The notes below the pieces were generated by a model, which did not search any database, was not told the DNA's origin, and saw only the letters and a program-made list of their open reading frames with translations. Of a stretch of DNA of 64,000 nucleotides, positions 5,077 through 44,460 are shown in pieces (position 1 is the first letter of the stretch; each line of letters starts with the position of its first letter). The stretch comes from Sphingomonas jinjuensis. Lineage in GTDB: Bacteria > Pseudomonadota > Alphaproteobacteria > Sphingomonadales > Sphingomonadaceae. The stretch spans positions 124,001 to 188,000 of the forward strand of contig NZ_JACIEV010000004.1 in the NCBI RefSeq assembly GCF_014197105.1. The letters run 5' to 3'. The translations under genes and the position numbers were made by a program.

Positions 5077-5686
5077 GAACACCGTCCTCGTCCTCCTCGC
5101 CGCCGGCCGGTCCGAACGGTTCGGCAATGTCGGCAGCAAGCTGGAGGAGGAATTCCTCGGCCGGCCGCTCGGCTATCATGTGGCGGTCGCGCTGGAGGCG
5201 GTGCCGTTCATGGCGCGGGTCGCGATCGTCGACGGCGGGCGGCTCGACTATACCCGCTACGGCTTCACCCATGTCCACAACGACGATCCCGCGCGCGGCA
5301 TGTCGCAGTCGGTGCGGCTGGGCGTGACCGAGACGATGCGCCTCGGCGCGGCGGCGGTGGTGATCGCGCTCGCCGACATGCCGCGCGTCACCGCGACGCA
5401 CATCTACCATCTGTTCGATGCCGCGACGGGCGAGGACAGCGTGGTCGCGTCGAGCGACGGGAAGGATACCAAGCCGCCGGTGCTGTTCGGGCGCGCGCAG
5501 TTCGAGGCGCTACTGACGCTGGAGGGCGATGCCGGCGCGCGCGACATGGTGAAGCGCGGGCGGCATGTCGTGACCAACCCGGCCGAATTGATCGATGTCG
5601 ACACGCGCGAGGAGCTGGAGCAGCTGCGCGAGCTGGTCCATGCCCCAGAGGCGCTTACTCGTGCCGGAGCGCGTCGATTGGGTTGA
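5063..5686 (+). CDS. Molybdenum cofactor nucleotidyltransferase-like protein (MocA type)
   Basis: A 207-residue GT-A-fold nucleotidyltransferase. The N-terminus carries the nucleotide-binding signature LLAAGRSERFG (residues 11-21) with SK soon after, and the metal-binding ALADMP comes mid-protein. Relatives transfer CMP or GMP to molybdopterin. Pairing with XdhC fits a cytidylyl-molybdopterin (MocA-like) role for a xanthine-dehydrogenase-type enzyme. The ATG at 5063 lies inside the xdhC-like reading frame, which implies coupling. Its 3' end overlaps the convergent permease gene by 32 bp. Confidence 0.8.
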   Translation: MIVPENTVLVLLAAGRSERFGNVGSKLEEEFLGRPLGYHVAVALEAVPFMARVAIVDGGRLDYTRYGFTHVHNDDPARGMSQSVRLGVTETMRLGAAAVVIALADMPRVTATHIYHLFDAATGEDSVVASSDGKDTKPPVLFGRAQFEALLTLEGDAGARDMVKRGRHVVTNPAELIDVDTREELEQLRELVHAPEALTRAGARRLG

Positions 5687-6872
5687 GCGCCGCCGCGCGC
5701 CGCGCGGGGAAATAGCCGAAGACGACGCCGATCAGCGCCGAGATGCCGAAGGCGAGCAGGTTGATCTCGGGCACGAACAGGAACGGCAAGCCGCCGAGCG
5801 CCGACAGCGCGCCGATCGCGAGCTGCGCCACTACAAGTCCGATGACACCGCCGAGCATCGACAGCGCCACCGCCTCCACCAGGAATTGAGTCAGCACCTC
5901 GCTGGCGACCGCACCGATCGCGAGGCGGATGCCGATCTCGCGCGTCCGCTCGGTCACCGAGACGAGCATGATGTTCATGATGCCGATACCGCCGACGACC
6001 AGGCTGATCCCCGCGACCGCGGTGACGATCCGCGTCAGCAGCGTCGTCGTGCTCGAGAGCGTGTCGCTGATCTGCTTGGTGTCGAAGATGAAGAAATTGT
6101 CGTCTTGCCCCGGTTGCAGGTGACGCAGCTGGCGCAGCAGGCTGGTGAGCGACGCCTGGACCTGGGTGGTGTCATAGGCCTGGTCGACGCCGACGAGGAT
6201 CGCGGCGAGCTTGTCGTCGCCGGTCAGGCGGCGCTGTACGGTCTTCATCGGCATTAGGACGACATCGTCCTGGTCGCCGCCGAACCCCGCCTGGCCCCGC
6301 ATGCTGAGCGCGCCGATGACGTTGCACGAAATGTCGGCGACGCGGATGCGCTGGCCGATCGCAGCATTGGGGTCACCGCCGGGGAAGAGGTTCTTGAGCA
6401 CGGTATTGCCGAGGATGCACACCGCCTTGCCCGCCTGCTCCTCGTCGGGCGAGAAGTCGCGGCCGGCGGTCAGCGGCCATGCCTGGACGGTGAAATAGGC
6501 GTTGGTGGTGCCGTAGATGCTCGTCGACCAGTTGGCGCCGGCGTAGATCGCGGTGCCGCTGCGCTGGACCGCAGGGGCGACCGCGGTGACGCCGGTGATC
6601 TGCTGGCGGATCGGGCGGAGGTAATCGTCGGTCAGCGGCGGCGGCGGCGGCCCGCCACCCCCGCGGCCGAAGCCCTGGCCGGGGCGGATCTGGAGGATGT
6701 TGCTGCCGAGCGACGAGATGTTCTTCTGCACCTGCGCCGTCGTCGCCTTGCCCAGCGTCACCATGGTGACGACCGCGGCGACGCCGATAATGATGCCGAG
6801 CGTCGTCAGGAACGAGCGCAGCAGGTGGCGGCGGATCGACCGCAGCGCGAGGATGAGGGTGGTGCCGAGCAT
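5655..6872 (-). CDS. MacB-like ABC transporter permease
   Basis: A 405-residue MacB/FtsX-type permease. It has a hydrophobic helix at about residues 20-42, a large periplasmic domain (MacB_PCD) and three C-terminal membrane helices within the FtsX domain (GGIGIMNIMLVSVTERTREI, then two more). It lacks the fused ATPase, which is encoded separately upstream. An odd Gly/Pro run, GFGRGGGGPPPPP, sits near residue 70. Together with the ATPase, adaptor and outer-membrane factor it would form a tripartite efflux machine. Its ATG is 3 bp after the DUF559 stop. Confidence 0.92.
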   Translation of the reverse strand: MLGTTLILALRSIRRHLLRSFLTTLGIIIGVAAVVTMVTLGKATTAQVQKNISSLGSNILQIRPGQGFGRGGGGPPPPPLTDDYLRPIRQQITGVTAVAPAVQRSGTAIYAGANWSTSIYGTTNAYFTVQAWPLTAGRDFSPDEEQAGKAVCILGNTVLKNLFPGGDPNAAIGQRIRVADISCNVIGALSMRGQAGFGGDQDDVVLMPMKTVQRRLTGDDKLAAILVGVDQAYDTTQVQASLTSLLRQLRHLQPGQDDNFFIFDTKQISDTLSSTTTLLTRIVTAVAGISLVVGGIGIMNIMLVSVTERTREIGIRLAIGAVASEVLTQFLVEAVALSMLGGVIGLVVAQLAIGALSALGGLPFLFVPEINLLAFGISALIGVVFGYFPARRAAALNPIDALRHE

Positions 6873-6875
6873 GAC

Positions 6876-7322
6876 TTACTTGAGCCCCTCCCCTTTAGGG
6901 GAGGGGTTGGGGTGGGGCAGTCGCCAAACGGCGCGAAGGGGGAGAGTTCGCGCGACATCCAGAATGTGCTCACGAACACCCTCTACGTTCGTCATGACAT
7001 CGGTGTGCGTCACTCGGACCGTGGTGAATCCATGGGCGGCCATAATGGCGTCGCGCTGCGAATCTGCTTCGTGATCGTGCGTGTGACCGTCGACCTCGAC
7101 GATCAGGCCGAGGGTCGGGCAAAAGAAGTCCACGATACGCATGCCGAGCACCGCTTGGCGTCGGAATTCGAAGCCGCCGAGCTGACTGTTCGTCCGGCCG
7201 CGCCAAAGGCGCTTTTCAGGTTCGGGCGGTTCTCGGCGCATCTGGTGCGCACGAGCTGCCAGCCGGGTCCCCCACCCCAACCCCTCCCCTGAAGGGGAGG
7301 GGCTTGCACGTGTCTCCACCAT
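6876..7322 (-). CDS. DUF559 endonuclease-fold protein inserted in an efflux operon
   Basis: A 148-residue DUF559 (Vsr/PD-(D/E)XK-like) protein. The core shows EKRLW, the signature GFEFRRQ (residues 50-56), IVDFFC (63-68) and IVEVDGHTH (74-82), the likely catalytic acidic cluster. The start ATG shares one base with the stop of the ATPase gene (TGATG), and the stop is 3 bp from the permease start, so it is fully embedded in the operon. Residues about 7-18 and 135-148 ([12 protein letters not shown] and PHPNPSPKGEGLK) are encoded by the two 34-bp inverted repeats that bracket the gene. No methyltransferase is nearby, so a mismatch-repair or restriction partner is not evident. Confidence 0.85.
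   Translation of the reverse strand: MVETRASPSPSGEGLGWGTRLAARAHQMRREPPEPEKRLWRGRTNSQLGGFEFRRQAVLGMRIVDFFCPTLGLIVEVDGHTHDHEADSQRDAIMAAHGFTTVRVTHTDVMTNVEGVREHILDVARTLPLRAVWRLPHPNPSPKGEGLK
6884..6917. repeat. Family A repeat, left terminal copy of the DUF559 unit
   Basis: A 34-base unit GCCCCTCCCCTTTAGGGGAG followed by GGGTTGGGGTGGGG. It contains its own hairpin and is the inverted match (33 of 34 bases) of 7270-7303. It encodes the C-terminal residues of the DUF559 protein. Confidence 0.9.
7270..7303. repeat. Family A repeat, right terminal copy of the DUF559 unit
   Basis: Inverted partner of 6884-6917, differing at one base in the hairpin loop. The two copies are separated by 352 bp that hold the core of the DUF559 gene. 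The same pair around a 31-bp core is found at 24413-24511. Confidence 0.9.
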
Positions 7323-8038
7323 CACAGCGCCACCTCTTCGCCCTGACGGTGCTGGTTCTCGATGCGCTCGACCAGGCCGTCCTTGAAGTGGACCACGGTG
7401 CGGGCGAAGGCGGCCATGTCGGGTTCGTGGGTGACCATCAGCACGGTGATGCCGCTGGCGCGGTTGAGGTCGGTGAGCAGTTCCATGATCTCGACCGAGC
7501 GTTCGGAATCGAGGTTGCCGGTCGGCTCGTCCGCCAGCAGCACGTCGGGCTGGGTAACGATCGCGCGGGCGATGGCGACACGCTGCTGCTGGCCGCCCGA
7601 CAGCTCGGCGGGGGTATGGTCCCACCATTGGTCGAGGCCGACCTTTTCGAGCGCCGCCATCGCGGTCGCGCGGCGGGCCTTCTTCTCGTCGCCGCGATAG
7701 AGCAGCGGCAGTTCGACATTCTCGAGCGCGCTGGTGCGGCTCAAGAGGTTGAAGCCCTGGAACACGAAGCCAAGGTACTTGCGGCGGAGCAAGGCCCGCT
7801 GATCGCGATCGAGCGCCTCGACATGGATGCCGCGGAACAGGAATTCGCCCGCGCTGGGGACGTCGAGGCAGCCGAGGATGTTCATCGTCGTCGATTTGCC
7901 CGACCCCGACGGGCCCATCACCGCGACGAAATCGCCGGCGGCGATGTCGAGGTCGACGCCCTTCAGCGCCTGGAACTGGGTGGCGCCGGTGCCGTAGGTC
8001 TTGGTGACGTTGCGTAGGGAGATGAGGGGGTCAGGCAT
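7322..8038 (-). CDS. MacB-like ABC transporter ATP-binding protein
   Basis: A 238-residue ABC ATPase of the MacB/LolD class. Visible: Walker A GPSGSGKST (residues 42-50), Q-loop FVFQGFNLL, signature LSGGQQQR, Walker B LLADEPTGNLDSE and the H-loop VTHEP. The ATG at 8038 (MPDPLISLRNV) fits family starts. An in-frame start 13 codons upstream adds sequence without homology. It sits between the adaptor gene and the DUF559 gene, with a 152-bp gap holding a family F repeat on the adaptor side. Confidence 0.93.
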   Translation of the reverse strand: MPDPLISLRNVTKTYGTGATQFQALKGVDLDIAAGDFVAVMGPSGSGKSTTMNILGCLDVPSAGEFLFRGIHVEALDRDQRALLRRKYLGFVFQGFNLLSRTSALENVELPLLYRGDEKKARRATAMAALEKVGLDQWWDHTPAELSGGQQQRVAIARAIVTQPDVLLADEPTGNLDSERSVEIMELLTDLNRASGITVLMVTHEPDMAAFARTVVHFKDGLVERIENQHRQGEEVAL

Positions 8039-8071
8039 GTGGCCCTCCCCCGTCGTTTCCAGCCACCCCTT

Positions 8072-8167
8072 CGTCATTCCCGCGTAGGCGGGAATACGGC
8101 GACACGGCGGTGGCGTCGCCTTCGAGAGGGCAGCCAGTATGGATCCCCGCCTTCGCGGGGATGACGG
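8072..8167. repeat. Family F palindromic repeat, paired units
   Basis: Inverted units CGTCATTCCCGCGTAGGCGG and CCCCGCCTTCGCGGGGATGA around a 40-bp spacer, inside the efflux operon between adaptor and ATPase genes. Related elements lie at 39.0, 43.0 and 48.4 kb. Confidence 0.85.
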
Positions 8168-8190
8168 AAGGGGTGTGGGGAGGCTGAGGA

Positions 8191-9609
8191 TTACTGGCCA
8201 CCGGCCCCGCCCCCGCCGCGACGGCCGCCGCCACCGCTACCGCCACCCGCGCCGCCGGCACCGCCGCTGCGACGTCCGCCGCCGCTGCTGCCGTCGCCGC
8301 TCGCGAGCTGGCCGGTGATGACCTCCTGCCCCGGCTTCAGGTCGCCGCCGAGCACCTCGGTCATCGTGCCGTTGGTGTCGCCGGTCTGGACCTGGACGGC
8401 CTGCGGCGTGCCGTCGGCGCCCTTGACGTAGACCGTCTGGGTGCCACCGCGGCCGACCGTCGCCGAGCGTTCGCGCTGCTGGCCGCGGCGCGGGCGGAAG
8501 GTGAGCGAGCCGGCGATGCCGCCGCCGCTGTCGGCCTTGTCGCCGCTCGCTGGCTTGAAGCGAAGCGCCGCATTGGGGACGAGCAGCACGTTCTGCTTGT
8601 CCGACGTCACGATGTCGGCGGTCGCAGTCATGCCCGGGCGCAGCTCAAGCGTCGGATTGCTGACGGTCAGGTCGGCGGCATAGGACACCACCTGGCCGGT
8701 CGTCGTGCTTGTCGTGGTGCTGCTGCTCGACGAGGTCGCCGAGCTGACCGTCAGGTTGGAGCCGAGATCGACGCGGCTGATCGTCGCGGGGAAGGTCTTG
8801 CCGGGAAAGGCGTCGACGGTGAAGCTCGCCTTCTGCCCGCTCTTGACGGTGCCGACATCGGCCTCGTCGATCGCGACTTCCAGCTTCATCTTCGACAGGT
8901 CCTCGGCGATTACGAACAGCGTCGGCGTGTTGAACGAGGCGGCGACGGTCTGGCCGGGATCGACCTGGCGCGCGAGGACGACGCCGTTGACGGGCGAGCG
9001 GATGATCGCGCGCTGGCGCTGCGTCTGGCTCTGAGCGAGAAGGGCCTGCGAGGCGGCGACATTGGCCTGCGCAGTCTTCAACGCCGCGATCGCGCGCTGG
9101 TAATCGGCGCGGCCGGTCTGAAGCTCGGTGCCCGAGGGGACGCGGCCGTTCGACAGCTTGTAGACGTTCTCCAGCCGGGCGAGCTGCGCCTGGGCCTCGG
9201 CGACGGTGGCACGCGCCTGGTTCACCTGCGCCTGGTTGGCGGCGATCTGTGCCTGTTGCTGACGGATCTGGTCGTCGATCTGCTGCGGATCGATCAGCGC
9301 GAGCGGCTGGCCGGCGGTGACGCGATCGTTGACGTCGACCACCACCTTGGTGACGAGGCCCGACAGCTGCGAGCCGACGGTGACCTGGTTGGTCGGCGCT
9401 AACTTGCCCGTCGCCGACACGCTGACGGTCAGGTTGCCGCGATCGACCTTGGCGGTGGCATATTCGGTCGCCTTGCTGCCGGCGAAACACTTGGCGAGCA
9501 ACAGGCACAGCAGCACGACGCCAAGCACGACGAGCCCCCATTTGACCCAGCGGCGCCACGCCGGCTGCGGCTTCACGCCGAGGAAGTCGTCGAGTGCGGG
9601 ATCGGCCAT
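8191..9609 (-). CDS. MacA-like periplasmic adaptor (membrane fusion) protein
   Basis: A 472-residue HlyD/MacA-type adaptor. It has one N-terminal membrane helix (about residues 21-44), a barrel-sandwich lipoyl segment starting VSVSATGKLAPTNQVTVGSQ, a long Gln/Ala-rich coiled-coil hairpin (about 110-200), a second lipoyl half with SPVNGVVLAR, then beta-barrel domains. The C-terminus ends in about 35 residues of Gly/Arg/Ser (SGGGRRSGGAGGAGG and onward), a low-complexity extension not needed for the fold. Its ATG shares one base with the stop of the outer-membrane factor (TGATG). Confidence 0.92.
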   Translation of the reverse strand: MADPALDDFLGVKPQPAWRRWVKWGLVVLGVVLLCLLLAKCFAGSKATEYATAKVDRGNLTVSVSATGKLAPTNQVTVGSQLSGLVTKVVVDVNDRVTAGQPLALIDPQQIDDQIRQQQAQIAANQAQVNQARATVAEAQAQLARLENVYKLSNGRVPSGTELQTGRADYQRAIAALKTAQANVAASQALLAQSQTQRQRAIIRSPVNGVVLARQVDPGQTVAASFNTPTLFVIAEDLSKMKLEVAIDEADVGTVKSGQKASFTVDAFPGKTFPATISRVDLGSNLTVSSATSSSSSTTTSTTTGQVVSYAADLTVSNPTLELRPGMTATADIVTSDKQNVLLVPNAALRFKPASGDKADSGGGIAGSLTFRPRRGQQRERSATVGRGGTQTVYVKGADGTPQAVQVQTGDTNGTMTEVLGGDLKPGQEVITGQLASGDGSSGGGRRSGGAGGAGGGSGGGGRRGGGGAGGQ

Positions 9610-24412: not shown

Positions 24413-24511
24413 GCCCCTCCCCTGCAAGGGAGGGGTTGGGGTGGGGGCGTTCGGCAGGCGGGGCGCTCGCGGCGAGGCCCCACCCCCACCCCTCCCCTGA
24501 AGGGGAGGGGC
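24413..24511. repeat. Family A inverted pair with short core (MITE-like)
   Basis: Two 34-base units in inverted orientation (24413-24446 and 24478-24511, about 31 of 34 matches) flank a 31-bp core. The ends match those bracketing the DUF559 gene at 6884-7303. It sits between hslV and hslU. No open frame of its own. Confidence 0.88.
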
Positions 24512-44277: not shown

Positions 44278-44340
44278 GGGGGCGTCCTCCTCTTGGATAG
44301 GGAGAACCCAGGTTATCGGCGGTGGTTCCGTCCTTCCGGT

Positions 44341-44460
44341 CCTCCCCCGCCAGGGGGAGGTGGCGCCGAAGGCGTCGGAGGGGGAGGATGCCATACCGAT
44401 GCGGTCGCTTACCTCCCCGTCCGTCAGGCTTCGCCTGCCACCTCCCCCTGGCGGGGGAGG
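44341..44460. repeat. Family C palindromic repeat, paired units
   Basis: CCTCCCCCGCCAGGGGGAGG at one end, CCTCCCCCTGGCGGGGGAGG at the other, with internal TGGCGCCGAAGGCGTCGGAG and related segments. Copies at 46570-46693 and 60351-60473. Confidence 0.88.

Follow-up and report, generated by a model that had tools for sequence, protein, structure and literature searches.

The window analysed here, a stretch of 64,000 nucleotides from the genome of Sphingomonas jinjuensis, holds a DUF559 nuclease gene between the ATPase and permease genes of a MacB-like efflux operon, with an inverted repeat at its ends (Table 1). This raises the question of whether the nuclease and the repeats form one unit comparable to RAYT/REP systems, as was proposed in an earlier note made from the sequence. 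The TGATG coupling with the ATPase stop and the 3-bp gap to the permease ATG that it described are both present. The near-identical inverted copies were also recovered, with a corrected size of 35 nt per arm instead of 34 bp, 97% complementarity and a spacer of 352 nt. The arms are indeed coding and lie inside the gene; they encode residues 7-18 and 136-147 and not, as had been claimed, its first and last residues. Flanking inverted repeats were scored with a pass mark of at least 40. The locus at 6876-7322 scores 65, a mark of at least 40 being reached by 0 of 581 random boxes of the window; its flanking inverted repeat is not a chance occurrence. An Rfam scan of positions 5600-9000 gave no match at the gathering score, and PHROGs and PADLOC searches returned weak matches only. 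By inspection, a CGTC-tagged REP doublet was also seen at 8070-8170, directly upstream of the ATPase gene.

Table 1. Features of the window that bear on the DUF559 gene and its repeats
Feature	Position	Strand	Remarks
DUF559 (EDxHD/Vsr-like) nuclease gene	6876..7322	-	148 aa; Pfam PF04480, E 9.7e-27
Inverted-repeat arm, 3' end of the gene	6883..6917	+	hairpin and third block GGGGTGGGG
Inverted-repeat arm, 5' end of the gene	7270..7304	-	tail directed inward
MacB-like ATPase gene, upstream of the DUF559 gene	7322..8038	-	TGA overlaps the DUF559 ATG
MacB-like permease gene, downstream of the DUF559 gene	5655..6872	-	starts 3 bp past the DUF559 stop
Gene-less inverted doublet, repeat family A (family of the 6876-7322 arms)	24413..24511	.	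L032
Single repeat copy of the type bounding another DUF559 gene of the same genome (C9 locus, L005)	44340..44384	+	by reading

Each arm consists, as read by eye, of a hairpin (CCCCTCCCC, a 4-nt loop and GGGGAGGGG) followed by TT and GGGGTGGGG, with both tails pointing inward. Triplex-type motifs were detected at 6884-6918 for the arm at the 3' end of the gene and at 7269-7303 on the minus strand for the arm at the 5' end, the single-stranded DNA hairpin having an energy of -11.1 kcal/mol in both cases (z -2.4 and -2.1, respectively). Judged by their sequence, the arms are of the BoxC/PIT triplex-repeat architecture, a hairpin plus a mirrored third block, with three consecutive blocks predicted to form a triplex. 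BoxC/PIT/triplex repeats have been known since the 1990s. In the portion of Holder et al. 2015 available to us (PMC4666352), BoxC/PIT/TM are described as three-block intrastrand-triplex motifs, with 23 motifs and five inverted pairs in E. coli K-12, a G/C-rich type in >260 genomes, and triplex formation in vitro reported for the E. coli motif. The same portion links triplex repeats to genome instability and states that its authors detected no transposase or integrase remnants or similar activities around the E. coli motifs (PMC4666352). E. coli BoxC is also counted among stem-loop families in the accessible part of a further paper (PMC2267715).

The claim that the repeat also occurs without the gene was borne out. 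Across the genome of 3.85 Mb, the 20-mer core of the arm is found 21 times without mismatch, the 6876-7322 gene accounting for two of these copies. With up to one mismatch allowed in the core, 22 distinct gene-less inverted doublets were read out, with lengths of 94-123 bp. AG stands directly before 17 of these doublets and CT directly after 13 (counted by eye), and several lie near stop codons, again by inspection. Among the places listed, exact cores form five inward pairs with a spacing of 100-1000 bp, each of which encloses a DUF559 gene. No target-site duplication, as expected of an insertion sequence, was found at the 12 of 22 doublets tested: the two ends of a doublet agreed over 2, 3 and 4 bp in 11, 4 and 1 of 12 cases (fractions of 0.80, 0.30 and 0.08 in mismatched pairs), and no matches of 5-6 bp were found in these 12. 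The amplified, near-identical gene copies of an insertion sequence are likewise absent from this genome. It has seven DUF559 genes, of which six reach a flanking score of at least 40 and the seventh (L003) scores 36; the other six domains are 36-43% identical to the one at 6876-7322, and the repeats differ from gene to gene.

A link of DUF559 genes elsewhere to such repeats, which the earlier note had set as a test that could refute its reading, was investigated at 76 loci of the genus, with one genome per species. These comprised the seven loci of this genome, 29 best-scoring loci, one per genome, and 40 loci hand-picked from the listed matches without view of the flanks, one of which was taken for its position in the same operon. 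The link was found, since 66 of the 76 loci scored at least 40 (10 fell below), compared to 0 of the 581 random window boxes. None of 194 control ORFs at the fetched loci (90-220 aa, at least 260 bp off the DUF559 domain) and none of 201 control ORFs of the window was bounded in this way. The reading frame is open through both arms in 51 of the 66 passing loci. The score alone is no proof of a private pair, because an upstream flank from one locus and a downstream flank from another reached at least 40 in 314 of 2000 random pairings; this fits what is expected when loci share repeat families. Across the phylum, DUF559 was present in 108 of 299 sampled genomes, and 41 of 70 hits (69 loci) scored at least 40 versus 4 of 646 same-locus boxes, with the other 29 hits below. 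A set from named records comprised 15 loci, of which 14 were scored, L270 not having been picked up by the domain search. Five of the 14 passed, all from Deinococcus or Pseudanabaena; the nine below 40 were from E. coli (ycjD), Sinorhizobium, Azospirillum, Neisseria, Thermoactinomyces, Picosynechococcus (two) and Synechocystis (two).

The triplex-type motif itself was also enriched at these loci. Its strict form, directed inward, was found on one flank or both in 61 of the 76 loci of the genus and 48 of the 69 in the phylum, versus 57 of 1953 random boxes; both flanks had it in 47 genus and 26 phylum loci, versus 0 of 1953 boxes. Outward motifs were found by the strict scan as well (genus: 31 upstream, 14 downstream), partly because the stems are near mirror-symmetric. 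When a longer second loop was permitted, motifs stood on both sides in 68 of 76 genus loci versus 7 random boxes. Over 145 loci, a third block mirrored to at least 85% followed 34% of 362 hairpins close to the genes, compared to 2% with shuffled tails. At three loci on Deinococcus plasmids (L208, L262 and L266), where the inverted repeats score 71-115, the strict motif points outward, not inward, and at a Neisseria gonorrhoeae locus (L261) similar, triplex-like repeats flank the DUF559 gene in direct and not inverted order, as read by eye. The DUF559 gene ycjD of E. coli K-12 has one triplex-type motif about 165 bp downstream, and no flanking inverted repeat was detected there by score. A comparison of empty and filled ycjD sites was attempted and abandoned: three gene-less records (L212-L214) carry an efflux operon at the ycjD position beside sapF, so that these records offer no clean empty site.

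We then compared the enzymes with their repeats. Among the 66 passing genus loci, protein identity was correlated with arm similarity (Mantel r 0.552, reached in 0 of 2000 permutations). Arm similarity had a median of 0.27 in 28 same-genome pairs and was 0.69 in 171 pairs from different genomes with a protein identity of at least 55%. Since linkage by descent could yield part of this match, copy number in trans provides a stronger test. Repeat A was defined as the family of the 6876-7322 arms, with a cognate clade at bits of at least 94 (20 of 61 genomes), and repeat B as that of the L001 clade at bits of at least 128 (12 genomes), both cut-offs being placed by eye where the listed scores showed a gap. 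The 20 clade carriers had a median of 15 copies of repeat A, the 41 remaining genomes a median of 0 (p 1.2e-9), and the difference persisted after subtraction of the two flanking copies (p 1.8e-7); five of the 41 genomes lacking clade A (G015, G019, G025, G029 and G040) carried at least three copies. The effect was weaker for repeat B, with medians of 6.5 in the 12 carriers versus 0 (p 2.5e-5), p 0.018 after subtraction of two copies, Fisher p 0.086, and at least three copies in 12 of 49 non-carriers. Cross tests of repeat A against clade B and the reverse gave p 0.098 and 0.16. Relatedness was taken into account with a midpoint-rooted tree built, for 51 genomes, from portions of the ATPase and the permease, on which a script chose 15 independent pairs differing in clade A. 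The carrier had more repeat A in 14 of the 15 and fewer in one (sign test, 4.9e-4), or in 13 against one with one tie after subtraction of two copies (9.2e-4). A generic hairpin pattern, which misses some repeat types, counted 6, 1, 1 and 2 hairpins in the four DUF559-less genomes as against a median of 31 in the 57 genomes that have DUF559 (p 0.002). The more DUF559 genes a genome had, the higher this count tended to be (Spearman 0.73, or 0.64 in a rank partial correlation with flanking copies subtracted and genome size allowed for), yet two genomes with three DUF559 genes apiece, G049 and G054, yielded 0 and 1 generic hairpins.

The second test set by the note, presence of the same operon with and without the gene, also had a positive outcome. 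The ATPase gene had strong DNA matches in 53 genomes, its own included, and 51 operons were compared; weaker matches in further genomes are probably other ABC ATPases. Far from being present in all relatives, the DUF559 gene occupies the ATPase-permease junction in two of the 51 operons (G000 and G033). The ATPase and permease genes overlap or are at most 1 bp apart in 35 operons and 4 bp apart in two, and in the remaining 12 the junction measures 33-223 bp, seven of these junctions containing a strict triplex-type motif. By inspection, the junction repeats belong to family A in G021 and are family-B-like in G023, G057 and G060. In G030, one of the 35, the terminal part of the ATPase gene contains the remnant of a repeat, which ruled out G021 and G030 as a filled and empty sister pair. 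G059 and G019, which are near each other on the tree, carry different inserts in flanks that are identical over the 27 and 15 nt compared. In the G021 junction (L294), the second arm of the family-A doublet apparently holds another inserted, hairpin-rich element.

The tree does not group G000 with G033 as sisters, and the DUF559 domains of the two are mutual nearest neighbours at 73% identity (22 compared), a pattern that may reflect an old insertion with losses or a transfer. The arms, each compared with the opposite arm, are 95-97% alike and the element 72%; a comparison of 99 codons of the two genes gave a dN/dS of 0.14, dS (1.54) being close to saturation. By shared flanks, the 22 clade-A genes, 20 of which score at least 40, occupy only seven chromosomal sites. 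Thus, the gene moves rarely and is mostly inherited in place, as RAYT genes mostly are.

Fold and profile place the protein in the EDxHD/Vsr-like catalytic class. Its AlphaFold model (mean pLDDT 82.5, pTM 0.74) matched 3hrl (E 2.0e-6), the catalytic domain of I-Bth0305I (3r3p, 5.5e-4) and PvuRts1I (7.6e-4), with a weak match to Vsr (1vsr, E 0.046). A profile search, in which PDB matches with E of at least 1 were counted as chance, also recovered 3hrl, 3r3p and PvuRts1I (I-Bth0305I at E 1.9e-4). Residues E37, D66, D79, H83 and D88 (numbering of the 149-residue A2 query) are invariant in 67 sequences, and we take them to be the residues of the EDxHD motif. The annotated records consulted name DUF559 genes only as DUF559 or endonuclease domain protein. 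In the accessible parts of published work, a DUF559 gene is assigned to the EDxHD homing family (PMC9403480), and Caulobacter VsrA is described as containing DUF559, with a tie to DNA damage and induction during the response to it (PMC12907096). The protein resembles the homing endonuclease I-Bth0305I in profile and fold; it differs in being free of an intron or intein and in having a core of about 100 residues without the extended DNA-binding regions given for I-Bth0305I in the available part of its description (PMC3943268). With Vsr and VsrA it shares the Vsr fold, weakly matched, and the DUF559 domain of the Caulobacter protein, in contrast to which the DUF559 genes here are linked to palindromic repeats.

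The proposal of one RAYT/REP-like unit is thus supported by the flanking repeats, the matching of clade and repeat, and copy number. The family-specific matching, the inward bounding copies, the gene-less doublets and the copy number that goes with the cognate clade all argue for an enzyme-repeat unit, and that the DUF559 gene and its inverted arms belong together is, as a reading of genome sequence, well supported. That the nuclease would also move the repeats goes a step further. We consider it probable that the whole represents a RAYT/REPIN-like nuclease-palindrome system in which an unrelated homing-type nuclease would act in trans on its own palindromes. The nuclease would recognize the hairpin or triplex ends of its own family, probably in single-stranded or extruded form, and would nick or cut there; break repair or replication restart might then copy short doublets to new intergenic sites, which would keep the repeat ends matched to the enzyme. 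In such a system, the gene would be the long-lived resident partner and the short doublets the part that multiplies.

The main rival to mobilisation, which we regard as unlikely, is that DUF559 is a Vsr-like tolerance or repair enzyme that clears repeat structures at replication forks while the repeats spread by other means. The association with copy number fits tolerance and mobilisation equally, and both the purifying selection on the gene (the dN/dS of 0.14) and the tie of the DUF559 protein VsrA to the damage response, as given in the accessible part of that source (PMC12907096), speak for tolerance. It leaves unexplained, however, the inward own-family copies around the gene and why, among the places listed, core pairs hold only DUF559 genes. 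A passenger gene, caught by chance or homologous recombination between two repeats that act as recombination hot spots, is a highly improbable account. The ATPase-permease junction did take other repeat doublets in relatives, which marks it as a permissive site, but a passenger origin is at odds with the absence of bounded ORFs from both control sets (0/194 and 0/201) and with the clade specificity of the repeat matching.

Less probable still is that the arms serve only to terminate transcription or stabilise the mRNA of an ordinary host gene. Stable hairpins close to the gene ends and the doublets near stop codons would agree with such a role; an inward copy upstream as well, the frame open through both arms in 51 of 66 loci, and a repeat copy number that tracks the enzyme clade would not. 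Scarcely credible, finally, is a scheme in which Y1 transposases of the RAYT/TIRYT type move the repeats and DUF559 has no part in mobility. In the available part of Di Nocera 2013 (PMC3733652), Y1 genes are described as accompanied by terminal repeats with a GGGGWSAS motif, which by eye are like some arms here, but Y1_Tnp (PF01797) was detected in only 4 of 61 genomes and is missing from 57, this genome included, which led us to reject RAYT/TIRYT as the mover. One of the four Y1 genomes (G006) has no DUF559 gene and one copy of repeat A.

The preferred reading, a nuclease-palindrome system, resembles several known systems in part. RAYT/REP systems (REPtron, REPIN) are characterized, in the accessible part of PMC3733652, by an enzyme gene within its own palindromes, gene-less doublets and several repeat-specific enzymes per genome. 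All three features are shared here, with family-specific palindromes around the enzyme gene at 66 of 76 genus loci, a repeat that tracks the clade, and 22 distinct inverted doublets elsewhere in this genome. In contrast to RAYT, the protein is a DUF559/EDxHD nuclease and not a Y1/HUH tyrosine transposase, and the arms, read by eye, show a triplex-type third block in place of a GTAG tag at the hairpin base. The repeats share with BoxC/PIT/TM the Y-block, R-block and mirrored R-block, the inverted pairs and the wide distribution, and the motif downstream of E. coli ycjD has a TTA second loop, like their type A. Unlike BoxC/PIT/TM, which the available portion of the survey describes without a mobility gene (PMC4666352), the repeats studied here bound a nuclease gene and their copy number tracks it. 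Like MITEs and insertion sequences, they are short, have inverted ends, are non-autonomous and accompany a coding version; they differ from these in their self-palindromic ends, the lack of a target-site duplication at the doublets tested, and a gene that is not amplified.

No report tying DUF559 to these repeats was found among the literature matches listed, which covered titles and abstract starts and few subscription papers or preprints. A DUF559 enzyme may spread a widespread class of bacterial repeats hitherto without a known mover, and with a candidate partner enzyme open to purification, or to deletion in a laboratory strain, the origin of triplex repeats, and the genome instability linked to them, become testable. 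It would also suggest a role for the DUF559 family. We give even chances to a broader, joint reading, in which DUF559 enzymes would be the missing mobilisers of BoxC/PIT/triplex palindromes and small GIY-YIG enzymes those of CGTC-tagged REPs and others, homing-type nucleases having repeatedly become RAYT-like partners in a general nuclease-REP class.

CGTC-tagged REPs, for which the transposase is reported missing, were also considered as the repeat of DUF559 and rejected, the tag being found at 0 of 145 DUF559 loci (one narrow pattern, within 300 bp). In raw, uncontrolled counts, GIY-YIG genes were also seen between inverted palindromic repeats, at 23 of the 30 best-scoring genus loci (L297-L326), mostly with repeats of the CCGTTCG..CTGAGC..TCGAAGG type, and at 12 of 20 loci of a second, hand-picked group (L327-L346), where 6 of the 12 arms were CGTC-tagged by inspection. 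At the level of titles, the literature match for GIY-YIG together with repetitive extragenic palindromes concerned Moraxella carriage.
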